Shown here: piece after piece, positions 3,601 to 29,716 of the stretch
Layout of the letters: the number at the start of each line of letters is the position of its first letter
Numbering within the stretch: position 1 is the stretch's first letter
Source of the DNA: Pholiota molesta
Taxonomy: Eukaryota; Basidiomycota; Agaricomycetes; Agaricales; Strophariaceae
Assembly (NCBI GenBank): GCA_014925825.1
Contig: JACGCK010000060.1
Location: 124,001 to 188,000 of the forward strand
DNA: 64,000 nt
Direction of reading: 5' to 3'
The notes under the pieces: model-generated
Database searches by the model: none
The model's input: only the letters and a program-made list of their open reading frames with translations
What the model was told of the DNA's origin: nothing
Made by a program: the position numbers and the translations under genes

Positions 3601-3720
3601 AATGCGTGAAAGATGTTGAATGTCGACCATACCTGTGATTTGAACGACGATGTGGGGTAAGAAACGTCGTCTGGAATTTATGGCGCCAATCACGGATTTT
3701 GATGACCTAAAGAGCTTTCG
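3600..3720 (-). pseudogene. Relic of the PWWP/TFIIS-N gene (one exon)
   Basis: Bases 3655-3710 on the minus strand match the exon at 14018..14115 of the intact PWWP gene, the part encoding the residues around KVRDWRHKLQKTFL. The copy has substitutions and no longer reads through. It lies upstream of HET copy 1 on the same strand, the same order as the intact PWWP and HET pair at 8-15 kb. Confidence 0.6.
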
Positions 3721-4060: not shown

Positions 4061-4391
4061 GCGAGCAGCCAGAGAAAGAGAGGCCTCCAGGGAGGTTGGA
4101 GGGAGGCGAACACCTATGCCCGGGCCGAGATCATGTGTTCGGGCCTAGCCGAAGGAGGTCCTCGGAGTCTCTATCGCTCGACGCTTCAAGGCACACATTC
4201 TTCCCATCGACAACCACAGCTGGCCAGGACGCGTCATTAATGTATGCTGCTGCACCCCCTTGCTGTCGATAAACCCAGCCCGACGAACACCCAGCCCAGA
4301 CATCCGAAGCCATGCTTACCCTGCTATCGCGTTCCCGCCTCTATCGGGCCTTCCGCCAGCTCAATCTTCGTCCTGCACCAGAGCTGAATCC

Positions 4392-5508: not shown

Positions 5509-6050
5509 TAAATGGTGAGCATTTAATCTTCAAACTGGCTGATAACACGCTTTATTGATCTTTCGTCAGCGGTCTCCAGATCAAGCCCAGCGCCTCCGGC
5601 ACATTATCTTGCTTGGCATCTCCCATGACCCACAACGAGAGCTATTTGACCCCAGTACGCTTTAGAAGCAATATATCCCTTTATCTGCTCGTCCAGATCC
5701 ATCCCTCCCCGCGTAGATCAACAGTAGATCAACGAGACGAATTCATCCACAAGCGATCTCTCGAAGTTTCCGTTGGCGGCTTCGATTTCCACACGAGCGT
5801 CCACGCCAGCCATCCACCTCCAGCTGTTTAGGCCTGTGCGCGCGCGTTCCGCGCAGATGGCAGGCGTGTTGGTAATGCGCCCGAGCCTCGGAGGGACAAG
5901 GTTACCTTGGGCTGGTTTGAAGCGAATCAAATTTCGAGGGACGCCAGGGGAGGGACAGGGATGTGGTGGGTCGGATGTGTAGGAGAAGGAGTTTGTGAAG
6001 AAAGCGCGTTGTTCTTTTTACTGAGAGCCTGTTGTTTTTGATTCCGTGGT
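5509..6050. repeat. Flank of the duplicated unknown gene
   Basis: Continues the inverted duplication with 16905-17447. Both copies carry an opposite-strand open frame containing RITNTPAICAERARTG and ERSLVDEFVSLI (minus strand here at 5716-5990, plus strand at about 17020-17222). This may be an exon of a convergent gene that I do not recognise. The duplication ends at about 6045, where the sequence becomes an F-box fragment. Confidence 0.4.
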
Positions 6051-6089: not shown

Positions 6090-6508
6090 TTTCGTGGCCC
6101 TGTTAACAAAAGCACCTCTTACGAGTTCCCATGCTTTGCGACATCCAGGTTTCACATCGAGAGAGCTATATCCCAACTTCAGGCTGGACGTTAACGATGA
6201 CCAAGCTTCGCGATGGCGCAGAAGGCGCTGGACGCGTTCAGAGTAGGGCATCGACGTTCCAGCGTCCTTCAAGCCGTCGAGGTGCAGCTGTATAATATAC
6301 AGCAATTGAGATGAGCTTTGGAAGGTTTCGTACATGGGTTTACACGTCTGGATTGGATGTATAAACTCACTCGATTTCGGGTTCATTGAAGATTCAGTTC
6401 AAACTTGAATGATTCTCTTACCATAGCGCAATGGGCCAAGGATATTGCATCCAAAATGACAAAAATTCGAACCCATAGCTCTCGCGGTAGAGTGAAGAAA
6501 TGTTCGGG
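6090..6508 (-). pseudogene. 5' fragment of an F-box gene
   Basis: Minus-strand sequence homologous to the first two exons of the F-box gene at 24257. It encodes an F-box start (LPRELWVRI, then LDAISLAHCAM), an intron, then TCKPMYETFQSSSQLLYIIQ and the following helical segment to WELVRGAFVNRA. The reading breaks off at about 6090 and the rest of the gene is absent. The next sequence is the edge of the 4.1-6.05 kb duplication, so the gene was probably cut by that rearrangement. Confidence 0.7.
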
Positions 6509-6691
6509 CATTCTTGAGCAGATGCGTTAGAGCGGTTCAAAGTTACGAGCTGTTGAGAGTGCTAGTGAGCACCAAGCCGAGATCATGTCACATGTGCGCG
6601 GTCCGTCCAGCCGACTGGGCCCAGAGCGCGTTGTTGAACAATGAACGTTGAGTGTTTCTTTTCAACCAAACTTCAACTTGACTTCAATACA

Positions 6692-6974
6692 ATGAGTAGC
6701 ACAAAGAAAGCGGCGTCCAAACTCGCAAAGGAGGTCTGCCAGTACACCCCAGGCGACGTCGTCCTTGGCAAGATGCCCGGTTGGCCGTCCTGGCCTGGCG
6801 TCGTACGTTCCCGATGTCCCATGTACACGAACATTCCTATTTGACGCTGTCCTTTTCCTTTTCTTGAATGCAGATTGTCGACCGTGAGCATATACCGCCG
6901 GCTGTGCGGCAGCAGCAGCCCCCGAATACAACATTGCATTGCATCCGCTGCTTCCCCATGGGCGACTAGTACTA
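6692..6974 (+). pseudogene. 5' fragment of the PWWP gene
   Basis: Exon 1 (6692..6802, 111 nt, exactly the length of exon 1 in the intact gene) encodes MSSTKKAASKLAKEV and then GKMPGWPSWPGV, a PWWP-type motif. Exon 2 from 6874 encodes IVDREHIPPAV, QQQPPN and CFPMGD, then hits an in-frame TAG where the intact gene has a Tyr codon at its exon end. No later PWWP-gene exon follows. This is a truncated copy divergent from the F-box fragment at 6.1-6.5 kb. Confidence 0.75.
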
Positions 6975-7613
6975 GTAAGCCTCCATACCCGACGAAGTTT
7001 CGCGCGAGGAACGAATCACAGTCATCGAAGCAGCCGAATCGTCGCATTTGCCAGCGAAGCTGCTACAAGACGAGCACGAGGGACAACATCATACAGTGGG
7101 CCACGGCGGGGATACACGAGCGTAGCGCTGGTAAGCATCCCATCACCGCATGTCGCCATTTCCTCAATCCTCATACAGCCATCAACACCACCTCGCCCCG
7201 TCAGCACGCGGTGGATAACGAGGCCCGGCCAACGATCGGAGATACTACGACGCCCAGCCTCATCGACTGCCGTGGATTTCTATGATTTCATCCGACTGGA
7301 TTAGTGAGCTTCTTGAGGTACACGGCGTTAGATGCAGATGGGTGAGGACTCGCTCAGGTCTTGGGATAAAGTACGCATAGGTAGAATGCAAACTGTGCCA
7401 TATACTGTGCGCTAATACAGGATCATCTTTACTAAGGTTTTCAAAACTATTAGGGACCAGCGGGGGCGGAGCGATGCCTGATCTGAGTACCCATTCAATG
7501 AAGGGGGATGTGATTTAGTGCTACAAAATCTGCAGTCAAGGTGCAACGACAGTACATAGTTGGTACATAGCGACCGCAGATATATTTCCCTCACCAGTAA
7601 GCTTATTTCATGC
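6975..7613. other. Unassigned stretch after the PWWP fragment
   Basis: A plus-strand open segment around 6998-7130 reads DEVSREERITVIEAAESS and looks codon-like rather than random, followed by a possible GTAAGC donor. It has no counterpart in the other PWWP copies and I cannot assign it. I see nothing else. Confidence 0.25.
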
Positions 7614-7990
7614 TGAGTTGACCTCTTCCACGCAGGCTGCCATGCACGAAAAGCTCTCTTGGGCCGTTCATTTTCGAGTACGTTGCGAGCCCGCGTATCT
7701 TCTGCACACGATACCTAACACTTTTCCCATGCGTATTATCTCCTTCCCTCAGTTGGCCGCCCTTCCTGATTATTCTCGGTCTCTGGGATGATTTCAGTGT
7801 GGCCAGAAACGGCTCAAATATATTGACGATATTTAGAAAGGAACATATTTGTTATGATGCCATTGTTGCCGCAGTTCCTGCGCGTCGCCTGGTGAGTATG
7901 TGGGTCCTACCACCTACGCTGCTGAAGGTTACAGAGTTTGTATTCTGCTCACGATGGTTGTTCATCTAGATAATTTGGCACGAAATAATG
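7614..7990 (+). pseudogene. Relic of the gene convergent to HET copies
   Basis: Homologous to 32463-32800 on the minus strand, the 3' part of the unrecognised gene that faces HET copy 3. Here it faces the 3' end of HET copy 2, so the HET gene and its convergent neighbour were duplicated together. Frames are interrupted and the 5' part is missing. Confidence 0.55.
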
Positions 7991-8047
7991 AAGATTTTGA
8001 ATCGTAAACGGATGCGCTTGGGATTTCAAAATATATTGTCTACAAAA

Positions 8048-10434
8048 TCAAAATGTATTTAATTTCATTCCATGGCTTTCCAGCTTACTTCGTCTGATAA
8101 AATAATAATGACCATACGTTTTATGACGTATATTGTTAAGGGGGAAAGTCACGGGTGCTTTTGTACCAACCTTTATATTGGGGAAGTAAGTTGACAATAC
8201 CATTGCAAGGCAATGGCGCGGAACCAGTATCCTTCTATCGGCTTCCATTCCGGCAATAATGTTCAAAACACCAAGCACCAATTGTTTCCTCTCGTCCCAT
8301 TTATTGTCGTCGGAGATCTTGTCGGTTCTGGCGTCTAATATACTGTAACTTCCTGTGTGGGCGCACAAGATGGGTGTTACAGGAGAGATAAAGGAGAGAT
8401 CGGCTATAGCATGATAATCTTTCCGTGGTGACCGAGTGGCATTTTCAATTGGTATTGCGGGCATAAGCAGGATGGTGATGCGCAATCCGAGGTGGGTGAG
8501 CATCATGGGTTCGACAGGGTTTACCCCAATGATGTTCGGACCCAAGCTTGTAGAGCGATCCAGATAACCTTGTAGACTCGACGGAAGAAGGGCTGAGAGT
8601 CGTGAATGGTTGGAACCTGCCCAGTTGAATATGTCTGCAATGCCTTTGGACGTCGAGTCTAGTACCGCTTGCAGAAGGCGAGAAAATGCGCGTTCACCGC
8701 CCTCGCCATAAGCAGTCGCAATGCTGACATCGAAAATACCCATGAGAGAGTACGCGCTGTCCTCTTCACGGGTCACTTGACGCTTGGCGGCGATTTGCAT
8801 CCTGCGCGAAATAGGAATATTGAACATGTCTTGCTTCAGCTCACGCGCTGTAATTGTTGTCGCCTCTTCGATTTTGTCCGTGATAATCAAGTTGTATTTA
8901 TCGCTCTCCAACGATTCTACGAGCTTATCCCACTCGGTGTTGTAAAATTTGATGTGGGACGGAGCGATTAACTCCTGCAGTGTCCATCCACGCGTAAACC
9001 AGGTGTCCTTGGGCATATCCGAAAGCGCGGCGGTCTCCGCAAGATACGTGATGCAGACATCCGCCTTGCTGTACCATTTATACATGGAGCGGATCGATTC
9101 GTCGAGCTCTGCACTGCTTTCCTTGTTGATACAGACAGTGTCCATCCAACCGAAAGCGACACCATAGTCTTTCCAGGCGGTTCTGCAAAAATTAACGAGT
9201 TTTCGATAACCTGGCTGCTGAGGGTCGAATTCGCTCCGGATCCAATCGCCATAGGTGACTTCGCGTGAGTTTCCACGGAGCCAGGTATGCGACAGGATTG
9301 CGTATCCGGCATGTTTGTGTATCAAATGCTCCAGCACCATCTGCTCTGCTTCTTCCGAGCCGCTGTCGATGGCATTGGCATTGGTGGTCTGCGTTGCGTC
9401 TGTGGAGTAGAACTGCTTGCGGTGTGTAACTTGTATTCTAAGCGCGCGTTCCTTGTCGGCGATCTCCTCGGACACGCGTATGAAGTCGATGCCGTGGACG
9501 AGAGTTGAAGCGATGTGGGCGAAAATCTCGCCTCGTTCGATGAGGGTGATTTGGAACTTGGAGCGGACGGGTTTGAAGCATAGCAGGCGAATAGGCATGG
9601 TGTTGAAGACATGTTCGCGGAGTGCGTTCAGAGCCTTGTCGATGAAGCTAGACTTTCGTTGCTCGAATCCATCTGCGCATTGAAGTGAATACCATCGTAA
9701 TTCAGGGAGAGAAAGGGCGAGAAGAAGTTACCTGTATGCAAAATGATCGGTGACCCAATGGAAATCACAGTTCTACCTGGAGTTCCTTCGTGAGGGACTA
9801 CAGAAAAATTATTACGGAGCGCTGAGCGAGGGAACAATTTAATCAAATATTCGTATCTACCCTTCACCAACGCAAGACGTTCCTGACTCGTATTTTCCTC
9901 AAGCGCAGAGCTATCGGGTGCTGGCTCCGCTCCCAAAGCCGTATCCACGACATCTTTTGGGCTGAGATCGTCGAATGAAGCTGCCTGAGACCCTGCGGCG
10001 GGTGTGTCGGTTCCTTTCTCTGGTTCAGAAGGCGTGAGATGAGTGCCAGCATAATGATGCGGAAGAAGTGGAGACAACATCAATGTTGTCGATACGCACC
10101 TTCCAATTCCAACTCGATGCCGCCCATCGGACCCCGTTGAGAGCGTAGAAACGACGACATGAATTTCTGTAGGGCGATCACAAACTGTTCACCGTCGGGC
10201 CCCAAAGCGTTTCGATTCGTATCTACGATAATCCGTTAAGTTGAATTTCAGAATACAGATGTACAGAGTCCCAACCATCTATATCTTCTCCGTCGGATGG
10301 ACGTACAAGGGTACTGATTATGTTTCGCAAGGCCTTGACCAACATTTCGGCGTCGGTGGTCGGAGAACCTATGAAAGTTCAATGGCAGGTCACCTAGATG
10401 ATAGATGTAGCTTACCAGGCAGAGTCGTCGCCAT
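8048..10434 (-). CDS. HET-domain protein, copy 2 (intact)
   Basis: An intact HET-domain protein, predicted 679 residues. Exons are 10416..10434, 10276..10368, 10100..10222, 9861..10019, 9777..9797 and 8048..9672; they sum to 2040 nt with all junctions in phase. Start is MATTLPG. Residues about 8-75 form the shared N-terminal module (DAEMLVKALRNII, then GPDGEQF, KFMSSFLRSQRG, GGIELELEG). Next is one acidic segment (DLSPKDVVDTA, PAPDSS). The HET core begins at MPIRLLCFKP near residue 164, with YAILSHTWLRG near 260, GWMDTVCINKE near 313, WFTRGWTLQEL near 360 and REEDSAYSLMGIFDVSI beyond. The C-terminus is LESHGMKLNTF. Unlike copies 1 and 3 it has no exon 2: only an intron of about 47 bp separates the start exon from the DAE exon. 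HET domains are known from fungal incompatibility and cell death; a self/non-self role here is inferred. Confidence 0.9.
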
Positions 10435-10690
10435 TGTGCGAGAGGATAGCAGACACAATGATATCGCGAGGAGAGAAACACTGCTTTGTTGGCCTCACGT
10501 TAACCAGATCTCACAGCGTCTTGTTCACATGATTGCCCTTGAGGCCGTGAAACATGCTGCCTGTTCTAAATTCAATCCCAATACCGAGGTTTCCGATATG
10601 GGACGCCCACAATAGCCTGTGAGATAATGTTATTTTTAACCAATCTGTCTTTGAAATCCTGACGACGTAAAGGCCGTGTAGGTGTTATTA
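10435..10690 (-). promoter_or_regulatory. Shared 5' flank of the HET genes
   Basis: About 250 bp upstream of HET copy 2 is clearly homologous to 19400-19626 (upstream of the chimeric gene), to 15600-15780 (upstream of a HET relic) and less closely to the flanks of copies 3 and 4. The shared stretch holds blocks such as GTGAACAAGACGCTGTGA and TGAGGCCAACAAAGC. Conservation outside the coding region shows that promoters were copied with the genes. Confidence 0.5.
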
Positions 10691-11139
10691 GCATTTTCAT
10701 GAAATGCGGCGGGGAATGAACGACCAACCAACAAAGAGCAGACGAGAAAAAAAAATGCCAAGATACTTATTAGTCGAGGTACAATCGAGGTACGTAGGTG
10801 TTACAGTGCAGTGGCAGTGACTATCGAGCTCTCAATCATTCATATACACCGTTCCTGAAATTGGCCTGGTTCCGCTCATCCCGTTCGACGCAGGGCTGAA
10901 CGACTTCTGTGCCAACCTCAACTGAATTGGCAATACGTAGAGCTGGAAAAAATCCTAATCACTACGCAATGAGGCCGTTGCCAAATGTAACTAGTTTTCG
11001 CCTTCCCACCAGAGATGCGGGCCATTCGTCCTGACGCGGTACACGAAGGACGGCTGCAACAGATTAGTTGTATATAATATATTACGGTGGGTAGAAAGCG
11101 AGGCTACAAATCTGCAACGGCGAGATCCACATATCTATG
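10691..11139. other. Intergenic, no gene seen
   Basis: Between the promoter of HET copy 2 and the 3' flank of the PWWP gene. No ORF with recognisable motifs and no clear repeat. Confidence 0.4.
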
Positions 11140-11677: not shown

Positions 11678-14600
11678 TCAAGCCTCCGCCATGACCACGT
11701 CCTCCACATGCGTCGACGCGTCCTCCGCCTCCGCATTCGCGTCCTGGTCGTGCTCGCCCTCCGCATCCGCGCCACCAGCCGGCGCTGCGGCGGGCTCGGC
11801 TATCGCGGGGGACACCGGAGATTCCCCACCGCGCGCGGGAGACTCGGCGCCTACGAACAGAAACAAAAGCGCATCAGCAAACCCGGCCCAACAAGTGAAC
11901 GACACGACGGCCGCCCGCAGCGCCCTCCCAAAACGCAGTGGCAAACGCCCCGGCAATGATCCCGAAAGAAAACAAACAGCAACGGGACTCCTACCCACCT
12001 TTTCCATTGAGATCCACACCCGCCACACCCGCCTCCACGCCCTTCACGCCCTTCCCGCCGCCATTCACCCTCTCCTCTTTCCTTTCCTCTTTCCTCTCCT
12101 CCTTGCCCTCCTTGCGGTCCCTCTCCTTTTCCCGCGACTCCTCCGCACCCGCCCCGCCCGGCTTGTTCGCGTTCAGGATCCGCTGCCACTTGTCCACGAG
12201 CCCCTTCGCGCGCGCGCGGAACGCGTACTCCGCATCGCGCGGCGGGATCTTCTCGTCCTGCAGCGCCGCGATGTGCCGCATGACCTTGCCGATCTTCGAG
12301 AACTGGGAGGAGAAAAAAGAATGATCGAGTTAGTGGCGAGGTACGTGGAATAGAGGTCGGAAGCGGGATATCGGGAGAAGGAGGGAAGAAGCGATGGCGC
12401 GGTGGATGACGCGCACGGGTAGGTAGGAACACCCACGACGCGCCACCCAGCGACGCGGAATCATCGATCGACGACAGCCCCCCAGACTCGCAATCCAGAC
12501 CCATAAAGGAAAACGCACCTGCAGCTGCTCAATCGTGATCTCATCATACTGTTCCACCGTCGTAAACAGCGCATCGAACTCCGCCATCGCCTAAAAGACC
12601 ACAAAAAAGAGCGTCAGCACACGTCCTCGCGCAAATTTCAAGGCAGGAGAGCGACAGAAACAAGGGTGGGTTATCGTGGCCACAACTATATAAAAGACAT
12701 GAAGAGAAAGGAGAAAGCAAAGAAAAGGGGCAACACCAGAACGCAGGCAACACGTAACCCCGGATATCGGGCGCAAGACAGCAAGCAGCGCCGCGGAACA
12801 AGGCATCTCCAACAGGTCGCCACCCACATGGAAGGAGGAAAGATCGAAAGAACTGAAACAACTGAGAACGAGCCCAGCAGCCAAGGCACCAGCAGAAAAC
12901 CCATTCCAGCAAACAGCATTGGGCACCCGAAACCCAGCTGCCGGCCAATCCACCTGAGTCATTCCACTCCGCTCCAACAGCCACTCAGGCCGAAAATCAC
13001 AGCAAAGCAAGCACCGAGCACCACCAAAAACCCAAAAACACCAAGACCCAAAGCGCGGAATGCACCTCCGCATTCAGAACTCACAAAACGAGCAAAAAAG
13101 ACATCAAACAGGGCAAATAACCAGAAGGAACATCCCATGAGGGATAGCCGAGGCGAGCCCCACCAAAGAAAGGGATGAAATCAAAGGGATGGAGCGACTG
13201 AACGAGAAATAGGATGCAGGAGGGAACAAATCCGAAGCATAGCGAGCGGAAATCGCAAGAAAATGGATTTTTTTTGCAAACATGGATGAAAAGACATCCA
13301 GATGTGACCTGAGCATCGCGCCAGAGGGGCCATCGCATGCAGATGAGGCAGAAAAAGTCGGAAATGGAACGAAGAGATGCGAAAAGACACGACTGGGCGA
13401 CCCATACACCCAAGAAAACAGCAGGAGATCAAAGCACAACGGAAACATTCACCGACACCATCCCACCAGCACCCCACACACCCCCAACTCGCAGCAGCAG
13501 CACCACACCTCGAATCCAAAAACAGCCAGAATCCGAGCGCGAAAAACAAGATGCCCTCCGCACTCAAATCTCGAGAGAAAAAGGGCAAAGAAACATGGAA
13601 TGCAGGGATAGACGATCCGCAGGTATCCAACAAAACGAATACAAGGACCAGAAACGAAACAACGAAACAACGAAGAAAAAAATTGAACAGGTCACGCATG
13701 AGGGAGCACATCCGAAACACAGCAACCAAGGATCGCACGAAAACCGAAAAATTCGAAAAATTAAATGGACAGACAGAGAACAGGGATGGCGCTGGGGTCT
13801 GGGGTAGCTTGCCCGGCATCGAAGATGCGAATGAAGCAAAAAGGGCGAAAATGGGATGGACATCGCGAATGATGGGCGAAGAAAGCATAAATGGAGCGCA
13901 GAAATGTGAAAACGGGCGACCCATACACCCAAGAAAACAGCAAAAGAAGTCAAAGCACAACGGAAAAACAAAGGAGATGCAGGCAAAAGAGCAGACATCA
14001 ATGGAGGGCGAACATACCTCTGGTTTGGGCGGCGACTTGGTGCTGAGGAACGTCTTCTGGAGTTTATGGCGCCAGTCGCGGACCTTGATGGACTGTGGGT
14101 CGCCCGGTGTTTTCCCTAGCGAGCACAGTCAGTATACCCTCGACAACGAACGAACAAAGGAACACAGACCATCTTCGTCGTCGTCTTTCGTATCCCGGCG
14201 CGCCTTCTTCGCGGGCGGGGGCGACGCGGCGCCCATCTTATGCGACGCGGGGGGCGCGGTGAGCGGGCCCATGTCGTCCTCCTCCTCAGCGGCGGCCCCC
14301 GCGCCCGCCTCGTCCTCGCTCTCGACCATGGCGCGGCTCTTCGCGCTGCTCTTCCTGGGCTTTTTCTCCGCTGCTGCCGCAGCCTTCTTGGGCTTGGGCT
14401 CCGCCGAGCCCTTCTTCGCGCGGGGCTTCGGCGGGGGCTTCTCCTTCTTGTGTTTCCCCCCCTCCCCTCCCGCCTCCCCAGCCTCGCGTTTGCGCTTCCG
14501 GCTCTTCTTCGCCTTCTCCCCTTCCTCGCCCTCGGGGGACGGGGCGCCGGCAGAGGGCTCCGCGTCGGACGGCGCGAGCTGGTCGACCTGCGCCTCGTCC

Positions 14601-16591: not shown

Positions 16592-16904
16592 TTCGCAGTG
16601 TACTATGTCCTATTCCCCCATTTCTAGACACGCTAGCCAATATTAAATGTGTTAACGGTAGAGTACAATGCGCACTGTAATATCGGTTACAACCTGGGTA
16701 CAACCCATAGAAACGATCCATCATATGTTGTCCATTTTCTGTTCAACATCGTATGAATCATGCCGACACGAGAGGTTGCGAATTTTAGACGGTGAGATAC
16801 ATAAGTAGTCAATTGCGAATCTACTAAGAAATATTGACCTTCAAATTCAATCAAACGTCAATCTCATCAACTCGAAATCACGCAGGAAAGACAATTTGCA
16901 CGAT
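16592..16904. other. Intergenic, no gene seen
   Basis: AT-rich spacer between the F-box fragment and the edge of the inverted duplication at 16905. No motifs seen. Confidence 0.4.
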
Positions 16905-18870
16905 ATCAAAAACAACAGGCTCTCAGTAAAAAGAACACCATGCTTTCTCCACAAACTCCTTCTCCTACACATCCGACCCACCGCATCCTTGTCCCTCCCA
17001 TGGTGTCCCTCAAAATCTTATTCGCTTCAAAGCGGCCCAAGGTAACCTTGTCCGTCCGAGGCTCCGGCGCATTACCAACACGCCTGCCATCTGCGCGGAA
17101 CGCGCACGCACAGGCCCAAACAGCTGGAGGTGGATGGCTACCGTAAACGCTCGTGTCGCAATCGAAGCCGCCAACGGAAGCTCTGAGAGATCGCTTGTGG
17201 ATGAGTTTGTCTCGTTGATCTAATGTTGATCTATGCGGGGAGGGATGGAGCTGGAAGAGGAGATACATGGATATATATTGCTTCTAAAGCGTACTGGGGT
17301 CAGATAGCTCTCGTTGTGGGTCATGGGAGATGCCAAGCAAGATGATGTGCCGGAGAGCGCTGGGCTTGACCTGGAGACAGCTGACGAAAGATCAATAAAG
17401 CGTGTTATCAGCCAGTTTGAACTTGAAGATTGAATGCGCACAATTTATCACGCTTCAGGCCATGAGGCCTTCATGAGCTCGAGAAGGTCAGCGGCCATCG
17501 GCTGGCGCTTCAGCGGGATATGCACAGCGTGGCTCCTTTCGTAAGCATTTCGAAGTAAGAGCGTGCCTGGAACAGGAATCGGGGGGATACGATCCCCTGT
17601 GTAGAGTGGATCCACAACAATAGGGTCAATGACCTCGAGAACGCGAATAACGAGCGTGGGTCCAAGCTCTCTGTGCTCCGCAAGGTCGGATACTTCGAAC
17701 TGGACCTTGATAGATCCTACATAAAGCAATATCAGCACGAGAGCGCGGATCCGTGGATGAACCGTCTGACCAGTCAATGGATATACGTGAGATGCACCGG
17801 CCCATGCAGCGAATATTTTCTGTGGGAACTGTAGGTGGAACGCCTTTGTGCGCGTGATATATGCGATCGTCCTCTTTGTGTGAGCGATATCCAGATAGAA
17901 CGGGTCAGAGAGCAGATAGTGGCATTGTCGCACTTTTTTCAAGATGCCATCAATTTTGTGGATATCGTTGACGAGGGCCTCGTCAATCAGATTCTCGGCA
18001 CGCAATAACGACAAGAATCCTTTGCACCTTTTGAGCTTGACCAGATCCAGAATTCCGGGGCCCCAGACGTCGCCTCTCAGGTCCAGCAAGTCCCGCCCAT
18101 GTTCGAACTCTGCCACGCTTTCGCAGAGCCTGAAACGGACACCTGCGTTGAATTCGTGCCCAGCAGTGGGATTGTGATAATAAAAGACGCCTCTAGTATT
18201 CTCGGGAAAGCGCGGATATATCCGAGTGCCTCCGTTATAGCTGATATCATATATACATCGCGTCGGCTGCGGGTCGATGAGAGTGGGCACTTTTGGCTGC
18301 CCCTTGCCCGACAAATCAATAATGCCTTGGCCCGCTATTGACAGCCGTTCAGGTCGTAGAGTGCGCAGCTTACAAGAAGAATAAGTAACAGAGCGTCGGG
18401 GTCCTGCTGCTTTGCGGGTCTTGTCTGTGTCTGTCGAAGTCTTGGGTGGGATCAACAAACCGTAGAGAATGTTCTTGATTTGTAGCGAAAACGCACCGCA
18501 AACATCCTCTGTCCTAAGGCTGACGTCGGTAGCGGCATAGTACTCGCACATGGTATGAAACGCCATGGATTCAGCTCTGGTGCAGGATGAAGATTGAGCT
18601 GGCGGAACGACCGATAGAGGCGGGAACACAATAGCAGGCTAAGCATGGCTTCGGATGTCTGGGCTGGGTGTTCGTTGGGCTGGGTTTATCGACAGCAAGT
18701 GGGTGCAGCAGCATACATAAATGACGCGTCCTGGCCGGCTGCGGTTGTCGCAGGATGGGAAGAACGTATGCCTTGAAGCGTTCGAGCGATAGAGAGCGAT
18801 AGAGTCGTTGAGCTTGTTGAGAACGAGGGCGAACGAGTAACACCTTGTGACCGTGATGGTTACACACGTG
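16905..18870 (-). repeat. Inverted segmental duplication, partner of 4130-6050
   Basis: The minus strand here matches the plus strand at 4130-6050 over nearly 2 kb, covering the unknown gene, its 3' flank and part of its 5' flank. The junction at 16905 and that at 6045 share the stretch AACAACAGGCTCTCAGTAAA. The copies differ by scattered substitutions and small indels, so this is genuine duplicated sequence rather than an assembly echo. Confidence 0.8.
17448..18566 (-). CDS. Conserved hypothetical protein (intact copy)
   Basis: An uninterrupted frame of 372 residues if started at MAFHTMCEYY. The frame is open to 18629 without an earlier ATG, so an upstream exon is possible. I do not recognise the family. 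Visible features are a basic N-terminal part, VPTLIDPQPTRCIYDISY, GVFYYHNPTAGHEFNAGVRF, a Leu-rich helical stretch (LLRAENLIDEALVNDIHK), YLLSDPFYLDIAHTKRT, and a hydrophobic C-terminal third (LVIRVLEVIDPIVVDPLYTG). There is no signal peptide and no transmembrane segment. The inverted copy at 4392-5508 matches it closely but carries two frameshifts; this suggests the frame here is the original one. Confidence 0.7.
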   Translation of the reverse strand: MAFHTMCEYYAATDVSLRTEDVCGAFSLQIKNILYGLLIPPKTSTDTDKTRKAAGPRRSVTYSSCKLRTLRPERLSIAGQGIIDLSGKGQPKVPTLIDPQPTRCIYDISYNGGTRIYPRFPENTRGVFYYHNPTAGHEFNAGVRFRLCESVAEFEHGRDLLDLRGDVWGPGILDLVKLKRCKGFLSLLRAENLIDEALVNDIHKIDGILKKVRQCHYLLSDPFYLDIAHTKRTIAYITRTKAFHLQFPQKIFAAWAGASHVYPLTGQTVHPRIRALVLILLYVGSIKVQFEVSDLAEHRELGPTLVIRVLEVIDPIVVDPLYTGDRIPPIPVPGTLLLRNAYERSHAVHIPLKRQPMAADLLELMKASWPEA

Positions 18871-19400: not shown

Positions 19401-19626
19401 TACATAGCCTTTACGTCGTCGATCGGTTAAAAATACCATTATCTCACAGCCAGTTCAATATTGTGGGCGTCTCATCATAAGCATTGGTATCAAAACAGGC
19501 AGCACGGCCTCAAGGCCTCATGGGCAATCGTGTGAACAAAAAGCTGTGAGAGCTGGTAAACATGAGGCCAACAAAGCGGCGTTTCTCTCCTCACCTATAT
19601 CATTGCGTCTGATATTCTGTCGCACA
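19400..19626 (+). promoter_or_regulatory. HET-type promoter driving the chimeric gene
   Basis: Homologous in order and orientation to the flank of HET copy 2 (10435-10690, opposite strand). It ends CTGTCGCACAATG, where copy 2 has CCTCTCGCACAATG. The chimeric gene is therefore expected to have the expression pattern of a HET gene rather than of the PWWP gene; that is inference. Confidence 0.5.
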
Positions 19627-22600
19627 ATGACAACGACTCTTCCTGGTGAGTTAGCATCTACCACCATAGATAATGTCGTATTGACTTTCTGGACGTCGCA
19701 GATCATCTTTCATCGCCAGCCAATCCGGGTGTCGACGAGAAGGACCTACCAAATACAGGTTCCATGTTCGCTGATGCTAGAACACAAACTGGTCCCATCC
19801 CCACAGAATCCGGGGAGGAAGGTGAGTGGCTGTAAACTATTCTGGCTGAAGAGTTAAACAATATTGAACTCTCGCAGGTTCTCCGAGCACCGACGCCGAA
19901 ATGTTAGTCAAGGCCTTGCGAAATGTAATCAGCACCCACGCACGTCGATCAGAGTCCGATGGAGAAGTTAAACATGGTCAGGACTCAGTAAATTCAGATC
20001 TTGTAACTCAACTTAATGGATTACCTAGATGCGAATCAAGATGGTATGGGGCCCGACGGTGACCAGTTTGTGATCACTCTAAGGAAATTCATGTCGTCGT
20101 TTCTACGCTCTCAACGGGGTCCTGTGGGTGGTATTGAGGTGGAATTGAAAAGTGCGTTTGATCGTTGTTCGCTCCTTCCGCATAATTATCATGTATTAAT
20201 TCCATACATTGACAAGCAGAGGAAGAAATCGACATGTTCAATGCAGAGTCTCAGGCAACTTCAGACGGTGATCTGAGCCCAAAAGATGTCGCCGACACGG
20301 CTTCGGAAACGAAGCCAGCACCCGATAGCTCTGTGTCCGCGAATCGAAACACTTTGGCGCCCGATGGAGAACAGTTTGTGATTGCTCTACAGAAATTTGA
20401 GTCGTCGTCTATACGCTCTCAACAGGGTGGCGTGGAAGGTATCAAGGTGGAATTGGGAGGTGCGTATCAACAATTTTGATGTTGTCCAATTCTTCCGCAT
20501 CATTATTCTGGCACTGCGGGATGTAGGAGAGGGAGCGGAGGGCGGGAAACAGAAGAAGGAGAAGCCCCCGCCGAAGCCGCGCGCGAAGAAGGGCTCCGCC
20601 GAGCCCAAGCCCAAGAAGGCTGCCGCCGCGGGGACGGAGAAGAAGCCCCGGAAGAGCAGCGCGAAGAGCCGCGCCATGGTCGAGAGCGAGGACGAGGCGG
20701 GGGCCGGGGCCGCCGCAGAGGAGGAGGACGACATGGGCCCGCTCACCGCGCCCCCCGCGTCGCATAAGATGGGCGCCGCGTCGCCCCCGCCCGCAAAGAA
20801 GGCGCGCCGGGATACGAAAGACGACGACGAAGATGGTTTGTGGTCCTTTGTTCGCTGTCGAGTGCCTGCTGGCTGATTGACGGCGCTTGCTAGGGAAAAC
20901 ACCAGGCGACCCACAGTCCATCAAGGTCCGCGACTGGCGCCATAAGCTCCAGAAGACGTTCCTCAGCACCAAATCGCCGCCCAAACCAGAGGTGTGTTTG
21001 CCCTCCTACCCTGTCTGCTCTTTCTTCCTGCGTTTCTTTGGCTTTTCCGTTGTGCTTTGACCTCTTTTGCTGTTTATGACCGCTTTTGCTGTTTTCTTGG
21101 GCGTATGGCTCGCCCAATCGTGTCTTTTCGCCTTCCTTCGTTCCATTCATCACATCATTCGTGCTGTCCATCCCATTTCCGACTTTCTCTGCCTCGTCCG
21201 CATGCGATGGCCCGCTGGCGCCATGCCCAGGTCGCATCTGGATGTTTTTTCATGCACGTTGTTAAATTCTCCTTCTTGCGATCCCTGTATGACTTGCATT
21301 CGTGTTTTGGGTGCCGTTCGCTTCGTTTGGCCCTTATATCGATGTTCCTTTGCCTTGTGTGGCCTGTTTCGTTTTCGTTTTCTTCTCGTTCCGAGTTTGC
21401 AGTGCGGAAAGTGGAAGAGCGCAAAGAACACTGTTCTTTGTGTTTTGGGCTTTTTGTGGTACTTCGTGGTTTGCGTTTGCGTTTGCTGTGGTTCCGAGGT
21501 TGGGTGGTGTGTTGGTTGGAGCGGGGATCGGGCCAAATTGCACCCCTACTCTCTGTCTTGTCGTGCATGTTTTCCAAAAATTTCCGTTTTCGTGCGATCC
21601 CTGCGCGCTGTAGTATCAGAGTGGTGGCTCTTGCCTTCTGTTTTGCGTTTCTTTTGCTTCATTCATATCTGTGCCTGCATCCGTTTTTTGAGCGTCGCTA
21701 AGCCTTCGGCATCACCTCGTTTCGACGTTCAAAAATTTCGCTTCTTGTCCCTGCTTTTGGCTGTTTGAGGTATTTTGGTGGTGGTGCTGTGTCTGGGTGT
21801 GCAGTGGTTGCGGGATGGCAGGGCGAAATGCTTGACTTGGGTGGATTGGCGGGTGGTCGATGGCTGGGTGGTCGGGTGTTCGTGGCGGTGGGTTGGTTGG
21901 TTGGTGGATAGGCTTGTGCTGCTGGCTGGTGCGGCTTGGGGCTGGGTTCCTGTGGTTTCCCATTTCCGATGCTTCATTTTCATGCACGATCGGAGCCCGC
22001 CGCATGCTGCGGGCAAGTCATCCCAGGCCCACGTCGCAAACACCTGCTAGTCGTTCTTGTTCATTGCATGTTTTCGGAAAATATTCCGTTTTGATTTGAT
22101 TTCCCTGCAAGCTGTGGTTCGTCCCTGTTCTGCTGGTGGGCTTGTGTTTGATGGTCTTTTTTTTGGTTTTTTGTTTTGGATTATTCGATTATCCCTCCGT
22201 CTGTTGTGTGTGGCGCTCTGTTGAAAATGACGTGTTTCGTGGCGCTGCTGCTGCCTTGCGCTCGGTATTGGGGCTTTGGTGTTTTTTTTTTGTTCGCTTG
22301 CATTCTGCTGGTGTTACCACTTTTCTTTTCTTTTCTCCTTTCACTCCATGCCATATCGTGATTTGTGATAACAATTACCATCTTCCTTTCAATTTTCGCT
22401 CTCCTGCCTTGGTATTTCCGCGAGAATGTTGTACTAATGCTCATTTTTTTTTTGGTGCGGTGTTTAGGCAATGGCGGAGTTCGATGCCCTGTTTACGACG
22501 GTGGAGCAGTATGATGAGATCACGATTGAGCAGCTGCAGGTGAGTTAGCTCCAGCACACCCTCTGCACCCCCATCCCACCTCCCGCGCCGCTCCCTAACA

Positions 22601-23227
22601 CCCCCTCCTCCCAGTTCTCGAAGATCGGCAAGGTCATGCGGCACATCGCGGCGCTGCAGGACGAGAAGATCCCGCCGCGCGATGCGGAGTACGTGTTCCG
22701 CGCGCGCGCGAAGGGGCTCGTGGACAAGTGGCAGCGGATCCTGAACGCGAACAAGCCGGGCGGGGCGGGCACGGACGAGCAGCCGCGGGAGAAGGAGCGG
22801 AAGGAAGAGCGGAAGGAGGAAAGGAAGGAGGAGAGGAGGGAGGAGAAGGTGAATGGGGGCGGGAAGGGGGGCATGAAGGGCGTGGAGGCGGGCGTGGCGG
22901 GTGTGGATCTGAATGGAAAAGGTGGGTAGGAGTCGCGTTGTTTGTTTTCCCACTGCGTGGGCTGCTTTTTGGGAGGCGCTAGGACCGTCGCGTCGTGTCG
23001 TTCATTTGTTGGGCTGGGTTTGCTGATGCGCTTTTGTTTCTTTTCTGTTCGCAGGCGCCGAGTCTCCCGCGCGCGGTGGGGAATCTCCGGTGTCCCCCGC
23101 GGTCGCCGAGCCCGCCGCAGCGCCGGCTGGCGGTGCGGATGCGGAGGGCGAGCACGACCAGGACGCGAATGCGGAGGCGGAGGACGCGTCGACGCATGTG
23201 GAGGACGCGGTCATGGCGGAGGCTTGA
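19627..23227 (+). CDS. Chimeric gene: HET N-terminal module fused to TFIIS-N half of the PWWP protein
   Basis: Exons 19627..19645, 19702..19821, 19878..19976, 20029..20151, 20220..20459, 20527..20835, 20894..20991, 22468..22539, 22615..22921 and 23055..23227 sum to 1560 nt, giving 519 residues with every junction in phase. Residues 1-200 match HET N-termini: MTTTLPG, an SSPAN segment, DAEMLVKALRNVI, then the GPDGDQF / SFLRSQRG module, an acidic DLSPKDVADTA segment and a second, diverged module copy (APDGEQF, ESSSIRSQQG). At 20459/20527 this joins in frame to the PWWP gene inside its exon 3. Residues 201-303 are its Lys-rich linker and 304-519 its TFIIS-N-like domain and acidic tail. The HET core and PWWP domain are both absent. 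The phase-1 codon is completed across the new intron. It could code a nuclear protein with a HET-type N-terminus; expression is not shown. Confidence 0.8.
20992..22467 (+). other. Giant intron of the chimeric gene
   Basis: 1.48 kb, starting GTGTGT and ending GTTTAG, homologous at its 5' part to the 1.43 kb intron of the intact PWWP gene. It is pyrimidine-rich on the sense strand. The middle section (about 21750-22050) is TGG-repeat-rich (GGTTGGTTGGTTGGTGG) and differs from the intact gene. No ORF I would accept as a gene. Confidence 0.65.
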
Positions 23228-24120
23228 GGCGCGTGCGTGCGTCAGGCTGGAGGGATGTGCAGTTGTTGGGTCTGGGGGTGTGGGTGGTGATGTGAAATGC
23301 TTAAAATCGACAGACGAGTTGAGGACTATTGCTCGCCGTCTTCCCTATCCTATCCTATTCTTTGTCTTATATCACGCACCGTGCGCTTCTTGTGCTATCC
23401 GACAATCGCCTGCCCTCCTTCTGGTGTTCTGTAGCCTGTCCTGCTTTCACGTTAATCTTTTTTCTTTTCGGTCTTCCTTCAACCTACTTTCAAGTTACTT
23501 TGAACGAATGTGCTATAGTTCCTTGGTCGAGTTGCCTCGTCTCTCCCTTTCTTTTTTCCTCTTTTTTTGATGCTAATTATCTATTACATACTTGACTCTT
23601 TTTTGTCCCGAATTTGAATTCCAGTTGTCTTTCCACACTCACCTACCCACTATGTTTTATTGATCCACTACGCATGCTGTTTCATATGCACCATAGTGTA
23701 TGCTATTCCGCTCTGTATTTATCCCGTCGTTCTTGAAGCTTGAGCCTTGAAAGCATGTACATAGATATGTGGATCTGGCCGTTGCAGACCACTATGCGTT
23801 TACTTAGTCACCCGTAGGCAGACTCTAAAATTGTGGTTGCTGGCAAGTCAATCAACTTGTAGAATTGAATTCATGAAATATATTGCGTTGTCATTGCATC
23901 AGATTACCCTCTGCCAATGCAAATTTGTACCGTCAAAATGGCCAAAGGCGCCCGTCCTCTCCAGAGTGATACTCTGCGAATTTCGAAATCTTGGTTACAT
24001 TGTCCGCCGCACTAAACTGCACCACGAAATCTACCGCTGCCTTACCAGTTGACAGGTCTGAATGTTGAATCTAGAGGAGGCCCCCAACCCCCCTCTTCCA
24101 AATTTTGAAACGTTGCGAGT
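23228..24120. other. 3' flank of the chimeric gene
   Basis: Homologous to 11140-11677 as far as about 23780, then unique. No gene seen up to the F-box gene. Confidence 0.5.
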
Positions 24121-24256
24121 TGCCCGGGCCCGTTACAGTCCGGGCCGTCTCACTGCCTTGATGGATGGCACGGTCACGTTTGCACGATGTTCCAACGTTT
24201 CTTGAGGACAGTCATTGTCAAGCCGCAAGCGCGACTCCAACCGCGTCTGCTGAAGA

Positions 24257-26463
24257 ATGCCCAAAGATTTCTTCGATCTACCGCGAGAGCTATGGGTCCG
24301 AATTCTTTTCAATTTGGATGCAATATCCCTTGCCCATTGCGCCATGGTAAGCGAACGTTCAAGCTCGAAGAAATCTTCAATGACTCGACTGAATTTATAA
24401 ATCCACAGACATGTAAACCCATGTACGAAACCTTCCAAAGCTCATCGCAATTGCTGTATATCATACAGCTGCACCTCGATGGCTTGAAGGACGCTGGAAC
24501 GGCAATGCCCTACTCTGAACGCGTCCAGCGCCTTCTGCGCCAACGCGAAGCCTGGTCATCGTTAATGTCCAGCAAGAAGTTGAGATACAGTCCTCTCGAT
24601 GTAGAACCTGGATACCACCAAGTATGGGAACTCGTAGGAGGCACTTTTGCTAACAGGGCCAAGCAACACTTTGGAATTGTGTGGCTGCCCACCTTCGGCG
24701 ACGGCGAGACTCCTACACGACAACGATTCTCGACCGGAATGCAAGGGGTGTGCACCGGCAAATTCCGGCATATGACGTGGGGAGGGGGGGTACCCCTTGG
24801 ATGGCTTAATCAAACTTTTTTTGGCAGTGATTTTTATACCTCAGAAAGTATTATTATATTGATATACATCTTTTATAGCTTTAATACAATGTTTTACAAC
24901 CAATTTACAACCCTTGCAGCCATATACAGACTCCTAGAGGGTATAACTTGGGTATAAGTTTAACTAGCATTTAGGACTAGGTTGGAACACCCACTGGACA
25001 GTCTCATCACTCAGCAATTGCTCAGCTTCACTCAGTGTATCCCAAAACAGTGTGTATTAGCAATATTCTAATAATTCTATAATATCATATTGCTTGATGG
25101 GCACTTACTAGCCTTCTCAAGAGCCTTCTTATAGGTTAAATTAATAATATTGGTTGAAATATCACTAGAGATTCACATCAAGGCTGTCAAAAGTGAAAGA
25201 CTATTCTGGAATCAAATAATACAATCCTTGACAGTGATGATATGTGCTACTAAGCTAATAGGTGTGGCCATCTGTTACTGAGAATGATCTTCTTTGGTGC
25301 AAGGGACCAGTGATGATGATTGTAAGGTGAATGCTACAGGCACAGGTATTTGAAAACGGTAGTGAAAAGAAGAATTAGTGCTGGGAGGACTGGGTGCTCA
25401 CTATTTTTAGTGCATTAGTAATCAGAATTGCATGAGAAACACGTGACAAATTTCTTTTTTTGGACGATAAAGGGGGGGAGGGGGGGAAATTTTTGCCTTA
25501 AACAAACTTTTTGACCCTATATATTTGATTTTTTTTTTGCATACCCCTTGCCGGAATGCCAATCCGTGAATACGCGATGGATCCAACACAGGATCTGTTA
25601 GTGTTTCTTGAAGATGATACAACGTAATTACTACATAGTGCATCACCATTCACACCTATGCTAATCTCAAAGCCAATGTGTGCAGCCCGTCCGCGTCATC
25701 ACCAACGACCACCTGCAATTTTCGCGTCCATATTCGCGCCATGTCCACCGGCGCCGTCCATCCACTAGCGCATCAAAGCCCCTTGTGCTTGGCTGACCCC
25801 ATGCACGACAACCCCTACAAGAGGGTCAGGCTCCATCTCGCGCACAACACGTTGGCACTGTCCATTCGCTGTGTATCACTGGTCGAGCCCTGGGTTCATA
25901 TATGGGATTGGACTACATCACATATCTTAGCAGTATGTCGAAATTATCCTCCTAACTCTCCATTATATGATGTGACGACCCCCCAGAATTCATCTGCGCT
26001 ATTTGGCCCATCGCCGCCATTGTCGCGGCAGGAGTACGCCTTTGGCCTACTCGATTCCAGCCACTGCTTCGTCACCTCTGCCGCCGAGGCTGGGTCTATT
26101 CGCCTGTACCAGCTCGTTCACACCCTCTCCGACGCCAGCAACGCCATCCACCTCGCGACTCTCCATCTTCCACCAACCTCCCCCGGGACCCAAATCTGTG
26201 GAATGGCAGCCCATGCCGGCCCCATCGAGGCGAATCCATTACCACAAATGCCATTCGTGATGAACGACGAGGATCATTTGCATGTGTTTGAAGTGGCGTA
26301 CTTGAATAAGTCTTGTCGCGGCGGATCATTGAACCTGTTCGTGCACCAGCGGGTGTTCACAAAATACTGCACCCAAGGAACACAGAACCGCCATGGCTTA
26401 CCGGTACCACTGGCCCAGCAATACATACGCACTGGCCGGGCGGGGGCGCAGCGCGGAGAATGA
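24257..26463 (+). pseudogene. F-box gene split by a hAT-type insertion
   Basis: Exon 1 (24257..24346) encodes an intact F-box start: MPKDFFDLPRELWVRI, then LDAISLAHCAM. Exon 2 from 24409 continues TCKPMYETFQSSSQLLYIIQ to RFSTGM, where a transposable element sits (24742-25550). The frame resumes after the 8-bp duplication with PIREYAMDPTQDLLVF, which aligns with VRDFAMDPTQDLIVL in the other copy. Further exons follow from about 25689 (FRVHIRAMSTGAVHPLA, VHIWDWTTS, then FGLLDSSHCFVTS, HAGPIEANPLPQMPF, VHQRVFTKYC). The 3' end departs from the paralogue near 26390 and stops at 26463, so the last two exons are missing. F-box proteins are substrate adaptors of SCF ubiquitin ligases. Confidence 0.8.
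24742..25550. mobile_element. Non-autonomous hAT-type element, 809 bp
   Basis: Flanked by a perfect 8-bp target duplication CCGGAATG (24734-24741 and 25551-25558). The terminal inverted repeats begin CAAGGGGTGTGC at the left and, reverse-complemented, CAAGGGGTATGC at the right. An 8-bp duplication and ends of this type fit the hAT superfamily. The interior is AT-rich, has no transposase-like ORF and includes poly-T and poly-G runs. Removing the element and one duplication copy restores the F-box reading frame. Confidence 0.88.
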
Positions 26464-27100
26464 ACGACTTATTGTCGATGGATGGGTAGCTAACGTCCTT
26501 ATGATGAGTCACAAGCGCGCTCAATTTTTTTTAAAAAAATTTACCAGGACCGCCTGCATTGGGCGCGTGGGGTTTTGGGAGCACAGACGACGACGCGACC
26601 AGCTGTTCACCGCCCACAGCCCGTACGGATCCCAGCAACCCAAACAGAATAAGTACGAGATGAGCATCGCTCACATACAGCCGCTCAGTGGGATTCGTAA
26701 CCTCATACACATCCATCAAGCGTCAACACGGAATTGGCACCAAAAAACGCAGGTGCGGAAAAGGCACCCGCCCAAACCCATATCACCTCAAACCGATATC
26801 ACCTCGAAACAGCCGTGCAACACAGGGCAGAAGCGGGACCGCGGGATAGGCGCATATTTTCGGCATGATGACTTGGATCCCAGCCAGACAGCCGGGGCGA
26901 AAACGCAAGTCAATATCGAAAAATCGAGCGTATCCCGCGCGCTGCTTCCGCACGGGCCTTGGCAATTCTAAGGAACGGGAACGGAGCATATGATGGAACA
27001 GCGCACGGAAGCGCGGGATTCAGGGAACGTCAAATAGGAGGGAGACAGGCGAGGTGAATGAGGGCGAATGCCAAAAAAAACCTGATAAGTTCGCGGAAAT
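26464..27100. other. Unassigned stretch
   Basis: Follows the truncated F-box gene. ORFs here show no recognisable motifs; I see nothing I can support. Confidence 0.35.
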
Positions 27101-27620
27101 GGATCAGAAGGACACGGGAAGGGATGACATCGGCCCTCAAGGAAATCTAGCATGTCCTCAGCTAGGCGGTGGACGGACGTCATTTCTCCGGCCGTCAGGG
27201 TGCGGATAGCCCACAGTCGCGTCGGCGCCCTCAACAATGGCCACGTTCTTCGCGCCGCTCTTGCGGGGCTTCTTGTCTCCGCCACCGCTTCCTTAGGTCG
27301 AGGATGGGCGCTGGGTGGCGCGTCCTGCTGCGCGGCCTCGGCGACGATGTGGGTAAGGCAGTGTTGAGGACGAGCGCGATTTGCGTGGGCTGTGAGAATG
27401 GCTGCGATGGGCTGCGATGGGCTGCGATGGGCTGCGATGGGCTGCGATCCTGTCTTGTTGGAGGGAGAGCTGGTGCAGGATGCGCCAGGCTCTGGGGAGC
27501 AGATTAAGTGGGGCGCACATGAGATTCGATAGGATTCTTACTATTCTAGTTGCCTATGGGAAAGAAAGACGAGTGGATGCAGTCGCGCTGGCTTGTGCAG
27601 TTGCCAGTGCATTCGCGGGA
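27100..27620 (-). pseudogene. Decayed PWWP gene relic
   Basis: On the minus strand, about 27240-27290 reads KKPRKSGAKNVAIVEGAD, matching KKPRKSSAKSRAMVESED of the intact protein. Bases 27551-27610 match the exon end encoding YCILFFPMGD. Stops and frameshifts lie between them. The CACGTG-containing flank at 27680 matches the PWWP promoter, in the correct place for a 5' end. Confidence 0.6.
27398..27450 (+). repeat. 10-bp tandem repeat
   Basis: About five perfect head-to-tail copies of GGCTGCGATG inside the PWWP relic. Confidence 0.9.
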
Positions 27621-27769
27621 TCGATAGTCTGAAATGAAAAACGGGCAGTGGCACAGCGGACAACGTCTTCGTCGGCTAAACCCGCGCACGTGATCCCGGC
27701 CCGTGTCACGTACATAGACTCGGTATGCACGACGGACACTACCTGGTTGCTCGCATGCGCGAGCACGGT

Positions 27770-28030
27770 CTTGAACGCCTCTACGAACCCTTTCTCAGGT
27801 CTCAGCTCTTTCTGGGGCGTATATTCCCTAGCTGCACCTCGATAGTTTCAAAGACGCCGAGATGTCCACAACCCACTCCGCCGAAGTCTTCTGACAATGC
27901 GCCATCGCGAAGCATTAAGGCTTTGCAAGGACATGCGATATGCCACTCATTACTCATTATGAAGTACGAATGTCGAGTACGCAAGCTCGTAGGAGGCGCT
28001 TTCCCCAACATGACCGCCAGTTCGACTCGC
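27770..28030 (+). pseudogene. Relic of an F-box gene
   Basis: Decayed match to exon 2 of the F-box genes, including the DNA behind QLHLDGLKDAG and a better preserved end reading KLVGGAF. It is closest to the relic at 3840-4060 on the other strand. Confidence 0.45.
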
Positions 28031-28399
28031 AGGGCTGCCGAGGCCCGTACACTTCGAAGTTCGAAGAGGCTCTGATTATGACGCCCACAGGATCGGGTAG
28101 CTGTTTCTAAAGGATAGTAGTGCGATGTAGGTGCTACTTACTGATTCATTGTTCGTACACACGACTAACTCAACCGCTAGTGTAGCCCACTACCTTCAAC
28201 GGCTCCTCGAACTGTGCGCGTTCGAACTCATTCTCGCTATTACCACCATCGGCGATATCCTCCCGTACTATTTGTGGCCGCATATTCTCCAAGAGCGCAC
28301 ATCCACGAGCACGAGGGTGCCTCTTTCTCGGGAATACTATCCATCGCCGCCGTGGCCACGCAGCAGGACGTGGAGGTTAACGTTCAGCTCGATCAACCG

Positions 28400-28840
28400 C
28401 GCCAGCCACTACTTAGAAGGGCAAGAGCGGGAAGGATACGAGCTGACTGAAAGCGAACCAAAGAACGGAAGGGCGCATGCGACGCTGCGAGTGAAGGAGG
28501 GCTCTGGAGAGACGAAGCGGCCGCGGATGCGAAGAAGCCCGTAGCAGTAGTGCAGCAGACGTGGTACGGGCCCGGTCAGCGCTATCTCGCGTTCGACAGA
28601 GGGTTGGAGTGGCGTCGCGTCTCCTCGTTTGTGCAGAAGAAGAAGGCGCGCTGGATACAAAGGACGAAGCGGTAGATGGTGGGTGTTGAGACGCTGTTGA
28701 GACGCTGCTTATTCGGCTGATCTGTTCGACTTTTTTTGGGATGCGTAGCGAAAACTCCTGACGATCGCCATCCGTGATTGGCACCACAAAGCCCAGGAGA
28801 GTTTCTGAGCGCCAATCGCCGTCCAAACCAGAGGTACCAC
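28400..28840 (+). pseudogene. Relic of the PWWP gene
   Basis: Bases 28567-28680 match the linker exon (the region behind DMGPLTAPPASHK and KKARRDTKDD). After an intron, 28745-28832 match the exon behind PGDPQSIKVRDWRHKLQ and end CCAAACCAGAG before a GTACCA donor, as in the intact gene. Several substitutions and stops make it non-functional. It lies upstream of HET copy 3 on the same strand. Confidence 0.65.
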
Positions 28841-29716
28841 CAACATTTTTGTAATTTCTCATACATACATCCACGTCCTTTTTCTCTTCTTTCGTCCTTC
28901 TCGGTATTTCGCTTACTTGTGTTCGGTCCATTTTTGAGTGACTTCATTTTCATCCTTTATTTGCAGCATCGGACCACTTTCCGAGTTCGCAATTGCCGCA
29001 TCGCCCTCGCAATTCTGTTCATTCATTACATCGCCGCATTCACCTTCTGCCCGCCCGTTCTTGGATCGTGTGGCTCAAGCTATGGTGGTGCGATATCTTC
29101 CTGCTCTCGGAGCCGTTTCTGCTCTGCAGATCTACTGCGCTCCTTCTCTGCCCGCGCGAGAGGTCGCGTTCTGCCTTTTTTCTGCTCGAAGCCCACTGAT
29201 GCATGGCGCTTGCTGATTTTCTCGACTCGTTCGGGATCACTTGCTGGCTTAGACCTTGGCCCTACTTCTCATAGCTGATCGCGCTCCGTACCAAACTCAA
29301 CCTCCGTCGCCCGCGGGAAGTCGTGAAGGGACCCGGATGTTTGTCGCATAATCCGTGCCCAGGATGTCGAATTGACATCTCATTCGTAACACAGGCCAAG
29401 TACGATAGCTAGCGTGCATGGTCATTAGCTGAGGATATGGTTACCGCTTTTTTTTTGGTATATTTTCAACGTGTAATTCAGAAGGCCGATTACTTGTCTA
29501 CAGGATTAATATATTGACTTTCGAAATACCGCTATCTAATGGGTTGTGGCTTATCAGTGTCACGCGTGTTGAAACTGTATTCTCACTTTTATTTAAAATA
29601 AACAATCAACACGGCCTTCATCATTGATCGAAAAGCTGTGATATCTGTGGGAATCCGCCGAACATTCCAAATATCTTGCATCGGAGGCATCGTTGCTTTC
29701 GCAATTCTCTACCACA
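28841..29716. other. 5' flank of HET copy 3
   Basis: Part (28850-29280) is homologous to 3260-3600 upstream of HET copy 1. Bases 29590-29716 resemble the HET promoter block. No gene seen. Confidence 0.45.

Follow-up and report, generated by a model that had tools for sequence, protein, structure and literature searches.

HET genes form highly variable fungal families, and only a minute fraction of them is described as acting in allorecognition (PMC10197012). Here we analyze a locus in Pholiota molesta at which HET-type exons are fused in frame to part of a chromatin gene encoding PWWP and TFIIS-N domains. Four described systems are the closest. The hnwd/HET-NLR genes of Podospora resemble it in combining rearrangement with conversion at non-self-recognition genes; there, however, conversion acts on WD40 repeats within one family, whereas here it links the fusion to the chromatin gene (PMC2873952). 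Fusion genes in Oryza likewise consist of partial gene copies joined in one frame with the duplicated parent retained, but expression and purifying selection are reported for many of them, whereas the halves joined here, HET-type exons and a LEDGF-like gene, are known from sequence (PMC9199173). Relative to PWWP plus TFIIS-N proteins of the LEDGF/p75-HDGF type, the fusion keeps the TFIIS-N helical bundle and charged linker without the PWWP nucleosome reader; relative to HET-domain genes (PF06985), it shares the 5′ exons, the sequence upstream of them and the position in a HET cluster but lacks the HET domain itself. Judged by titles and abstract openings, no such fusion was found among the papers listed. 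The window, meaning the whole 64-kb stretch of DNA analyzed, covers positions 124001-188000 of contig C556 in an assembly of 65.6 Mb and 625 contigs, and coordinates refer to it unless another contig is named.

A HET-chromatin fusion on both haplotypes

Rebuilding the exon model from the sequence gave a plus-strand gene model at 19627-23227 with 10 exons, 1560 nucleotides (nt) and 520 codons including the terminal stop, which is the only one. All nine introns have GT..AG boundaries, and the join between the two halves (donor 20460, acceptor 20526) divides a codon between 20459 and 20527 in phase 1. In a Pfam profile search, the 519-amino-acid (aa) product matched neither PF06985 at E up to 0.1 nor PWWP; it did match a Med26/TFIIS helical bundle at E 0.0022, a sub-threshold score of 18.2 bits against a Pfam cut-off of 20.6. 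The initial annotation had described an open frame of this length with inherited introns, a phase-1 join and loss of both the HET core and PWWP, and on these points it stands. The exons, the parts of the fusion and its two relatives in the window are as follows.

19627-19645, 19702-19821, 19878-19976, 20029-20151, 20220-20459, 20527-20835, 20894-20991, 22468-22539, 22615-22921 and 23055-23227, plus strand: exons 1 to 10 of the fusion
19420-19626, plus strand: upstream region common to HET genes, presumed promoter (19420-19673 is 83% identical to the HET-gene stretch C46:54355-54609)
19627-20151, plus strand: fusion exons 1-4, HET N-terminal exons by exon model and similarity to HET paralogues; the first HET exon 4 copy is 20029-20151
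20220-20332, plus strand: exon 5 part a, corresponding to HET exon 5
20336-20515, plus strand: exon 5 part b (20336-20459) and the first 56 nt of its intron, by alignment a second HET exon 4 copy with its intron
20460-20526, plus strand: new intron 5, with the breakpoint at about 20515/20516 and the acceptor ATGTAG within what was once coding exon 3 of the chromatin gene
20527-23227, plus strand: fusion exons 6-10, taken with their introns from the 3′ part of the PWWP-TFIIS-N gene and encoding a charged linker, TFIIS-N and an acidic tail
21211-22614, plus strand: block of ectopic gene conversion that covers exon 8, intron 8 and most of intron 7
23228-23788, plus strand: 3′ flank copied along with the chromatin gene (22132-23788 matches C46 30322-28621)
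11678-15127, minus strand: intact chromatin parent, 7 exons, 488 aa, PWWP (PF00855, E 3.5e-19) and TFIIS-N
8048-10434, minus strand: HET paralogue with PF06985, matching NCBI protein BJ912DRAFT_881843, 77% identical to the HET half of the fusion and not its direct HET parent

Contig C46 is the allelic partner of C556, with main collinear blocks 87-95% identical, and the two probably represent the two nuclei of a dikaryon. The identical fusion junction is present on C46, where identity is 99% over 555 nt and all nine introns again have GT..AG boundaries. Recurrence of the same junction and splice sites on a second contig argues against an assembly artefact and against chance: the in-frame mosaic fusion is real, is carried by both haplotypes and appears to be young.

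Comparison of the two fusion alleles with the two parental alleles showed that part of the chromatin half has a separate history. Within 21211-22614, 123 columns show a swapped pattern, in which each fusion allele pairs with the parental allele of the other contig (window fusion with C46 parent, C46 fusion with window parent), as against 13 that group by copy and 6 by haplotype; these counts set gapped columns aside, 986 of which lie in the block. Shared gap runs in intron 7 give a more mixed picture, with 18 swapped, 16 by copy and 2 by haplotype. The pattern is all but absent from the surrounding sequence, with 1 swapped and 22 by-copy columns in 20992-21210, and 0 swapped and 9 by-copy columns in exons 6, 9 and 10. 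The segment has therefore been exchanged with the parental lineage through ectopic gene conversion. A collapse or switch of inverted repeats during assembly would be a rival explanation of the locus, which does lie within inverted repeats whose arms, parent against fusion, are 88-98% identical, and in which 21211-22614 appears swapped between haplotypes. A haplotype switch, however, should leave partners about 99.5% alike, as in the 5′ part of the fusion, whereas matched introns of the swapped partners are only ~70-95% alike, varying from one compared segment to the next. This rules out a swap of introns in the assembly and points to exchange with the parental lineage, and together with the junction on C46 it makes an artefactual origin of the fusion hardly credible.

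Divergence between the fusion alleles also changes along the gene, from 0.5-1.5% upstream of 20836 to 7-15% in 20836-21210, a stretch that begins right after exon 6, precedes the swapped block and shows no clear swapped pattern of its own. A selective sweep was considered for the 5′ part, which differs by about 0.5% between haplotypes, but positions 1-1200, 7201-8400 and 10001-10800 are nearly as similar, and no sweep is therefore claimed.

Origins of the two halves

The chromatin parent is a recent one, and its product is LEDGF-like, with PWWP and TFIIS-N. The copy in the fusion is inverted relative to the parent, and 5.4 kb separate the parental start codon from fusion exon 6. Decayed remnants of the same gene occur at 2865-3704, 6692-6971, 27220-27705 and 28342-28836, in both orientations and 71-87% identical to the parent; the search that detected them gave 9 matches, against 0 in each of 10 letter-shuffled controls. 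Decayed copies at four other sites in the window imply that partial duplicates commonly arise and decay here.

The history of the HET half is different. HET homology extends to 20515, and in an alignment with HET introns and both parental alleles the sequence from there on matches coding exon 3 of the chromatin gene, the C46 allele most closely; the TAG of the new acceptor therefore lies in former coding sequence. Exon 5 is itself composite, beginning as HET exon 5 and switching at about 20333 to a second HET exon 4 followed by 56 nt of its intron. Across 20336-20515, six spanning HET matches are 80-85% identical and four shorter ones 72-80%. The nearest HET sequences to the HET half are 79% identical (C83, 726 query bases) or 81% identical (C46, 473 query bases), so that no recent HET parent has been retained, unlike the chromatin parent. 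These results modify two statements of the initial annotation. It had assigned the 5′ part to the first five exons of a HET gene; the exons are indeed HET N-terminal exons, but they form a mosaic of HET with HET. It had also placed both parents intact 5-10 kb away, which is correct for the chromatin gene, whereas the HET gene 10 kb off is a 77% paralogue.

Trees of these short sequences, on which we do not rely, join exons 1-5a to HET3/C46_5 (support 0.84) and then C46_14 (0.96), the second exon 4 copy (4b) to HET2 (0.80) and the first (4a) to HET3 (0.60). At 0.24, the stem of the fusion's HET half exceeds those of four other HET branches (0.08-0.13), in keeping with a by-product, but that of HET3/C46_5 is longer (0.36). 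PF06985 was found in all four HET-like proteins or frames tested. We also considered, and rejected, that the chromatin copy had inserted into a HET gene and left the 3′ part of that gene downstream: a 516-aa HET frame found nothing below E 1.1 in 20300-29700.

We propose that ~3.3 kb of the LEDGF-like gene's 3′ part, running from the middle of exon 3 to ~560 nt beyond the stop codon, were copied in inverted orientation and joined to the intron that follows a duplicated HET exon 4, itself preceded by another HET fragment. The break was probably of the end-joining type, with microhomology small or absent. A TAG in the old coding exon could then act as splice acceptor, with phase 1 arising by chance, a match with a prior of 1 in 3. 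Exon 8 and the introns on either side of it have also been replaced through conversion with the parental lineage. The fusion would be comparable to the decayed partial copies at the four other places, and its frame would be open mainly because the copy is young. We lean, with some reserve, towards regarding the locus as a young chimeric open reading frame that arose by partial duplication in a rearranging HET cluster and is most likely a by-product that has so far acquired no selected function.

Splicing, selection and possible function

The open frame had been taken as a sign of function in the initial annotation, an argument that our simulations do not sustain. After 12, 20 and 40 random substitutions, with no insertions or deletions (indels), the open frame survived in 68%, 53% and 30% of 2000 runs, respectively. 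Given how recently the chromatin half was copied, and with 68% of simulated frames still open after 12 changes, the open frame is weak evidence of function.

The new intron 5 bears on what the locus can produce. In all six parental introns a CTRAY branch motif lies 13-27 nt from the exon, whereas intron 5 contains none, its sole YTNAY being TTGAT, 47 nt from the exon; the matching intron of HET2 has CTCAT and CTCAC sites, both 3′ of the point at which the fusion departs from it. Left unspliced, the intron would be read to a stop after 206 residues (KVELGGAYQQF-stop). It is possible, then, that splicing is inefficient, that the locus yields just a 206-aa HET N-terminal fragment and that the chromatin half is dead sequence, which we regard as quite improbable. 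CTRAY is also missing from all three introns of the HET paralogue and all four inherited HET introns of the fusion, and the three paralogue introns are nonetheless spliced in the NCBI model P0109. HET introns being generally weak in branch motifs, the weakness of intron 5 is a caution only.

A functional new gene would place a TFIIS-N (LEDGF IBD-like) protein without PWWP under a HET-type promoter and behind a HET-type N-terminus. Such a protein might compete with the parent for short-motif partners such as IWS1/Spn1-type elongation factors, tuning or poisoning chromatin-coupled transcription, possibly on HET-type signals. We consider this unlikely. Nonsynonymous (N) and synonymous (S) differences between the fusion alleles are 4 N : 0 S in the HET half, 1:2 in exon 6, 0:7 in exons 7-8 (4 S in exon 7, 3 S in exon 8) and 4:1 in exons 9-10, and the counts for the HET half and exons 9-10 speak against a functional gene; the weak branch site of the one new intron points the same way, as does the frameshift in the C46 fusion as assembled. 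Without exons 7-8, the 9 N : 3 S that remain give a ratio of nonsynonymous to synonymous rates (dN/dS) of 1.10 (exact interval 0.28-6.3), which accords with a by-product. In parental alleles, the PWWP part, which is not in the fusion, shows 1 N : 8 S, and all parental changes together 30 N : 38 S. Fisher tests of the former against 9:3, 9:7 and 9:10 give p of 0.0075, 0.040 and 0.098; the latter gives 0.063 against 9:3 and 0.80 against 9:10.

Several observations weigh against a by-product without function. When every exon is counted, the fusion alleles show 9 N : 10 S, with dN/dS 0.33 (0.12-0.90) and P 0.015 against neutrality; setting aside exon 8 gives 9 N : 7 S and 0.47 (0.16-1.49), P 0.11. 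The conversion block was first set as exons 7-8 with their introns, and the finer count that narrowed it to 21211-22614 weakened the neutral result; the ground for leaving out exon 7 is the jump in divergence after 20835, not a swapped pattern, and that choice was made post hoc. Changes common to both fusion alleles relative to both parents are 8 S : 0 N, with a probability of 2.7e-5 under a neutral origin within the fusion. Private changes number 4 S : 0 N on C46 and 5 N : 2 S in the window fusion (six complex codons and gapped codons were left unclassed). The TFIIS-N domain of the fusion retains 41 of 41 conserved columns, and its integrity leaves room for a PWWP-less decoy protein. Finally, the C46 fusion as assembled lacks one G of a 5-G run in exon 9 and so reaches a stop at codon 447, after TFIIS-N, and the C46 chromatin parent (C46:31643-32243) is also frameshifted as assembled, one C being absent from a 5-C run and the first stop falling at codon 371. 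As 14 of the 66 one-base indels in the larger collinear blocks fall in runs of at least 4, consensus errors and real lesions are not separable at these two frameshifts, both of which may be consensus errors.

The eight shared synonymous changes could be older than the fusion: dS between the parental alleles is 0.11, and the changes may therefore be donor-allele differences. A stronger version of the functional alternative takes them as visible purifying selection on the TFIIS-N half of an expressed nascent regulator, a HET-promoter-driven, PWWP-less decoy that competes with its LEDGF-like parent and connects chromatin-coupled transcription to HET-type control; this we find improbable. In HET exon 4, dN/dS is 0.22-0.80 between the fusion and eight paralogue sequences and 0.12-0.58 between paralogues (7 of 9 comparisons having a defined value). 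The comparison of substitution rates proposed at the outset thus gives 0.33, 0.47 or 1.10 depending on the exons counted. Selection on the fusion is undecided; relaxed constraint is easier to see in its HET half than in its chromatin half.

Protein searches returned no fusion protein: none of the 120 listed of 138 matches covers more than 67% of the fusion, and a search with the HET N-terminus gave two matches, both from Pholiota molesta. The absence of the fusion would count against a functional gene, but the intact parent is also not among the listed matches, and database absence was not used as evidence.

If the copy is as young as it appears, a chimeric gene has been caught close to birth, on both haplotypes and with its intact chromatin parent and decayed partial copies within one 64-kb window. 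In a young fusion an open frame says little, and conversion with an inverted parental copy can blur selection tests. The locus is also an instance, open to testing, in which a HET cluster captures part of a chromatin gene next to it.

Further features of the HET and chromatin genes and their surroundings

HET N-terminal exons (for example 20029-20151 and 10100-10222) share a conserved block, GPDGEQFVIALQKFMSSFLRSQRGPVGGIE, without a Pfam match. Protein searches place this block in two Pholiota molesta proteins and one 123-aa JGI-sourced fragment. A second Pholiota molesta database protein, BJ912DRAFT_110456, probably lies on C46.

Orthologues of the PWWP gene are numerous in mushroom-forming fungi according to a protein search. 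A PWWP protein of Gymnopilus dilepis (P0002) shows, by eye, what looks like a duplicated domain, with a further TFIIS-N-like stretch close to the C-terminus. In Pholiota molesta, the haplotypes disagree at roughly half of the bases in the middle of the long intron of the PWWP gene (12591-14017, compared with C46:29967-31490), while most of the exon segments compared exceed 90% identity.

Elsewhere in the window, 24242-26391 has no allelic match at the corresponding place on C46 among the best 80 matches, and its first 420 bases resemble a segment at 6090-6526. The stretches 4208-6048 and 16899-18750 are an inverted duplicate of a gene without a Pfam match, with arms 90-98% identical; an open frame of the first copy stops near 4970, and the second contains a 393-aa open frame at 17448-18629 on the minus strand.
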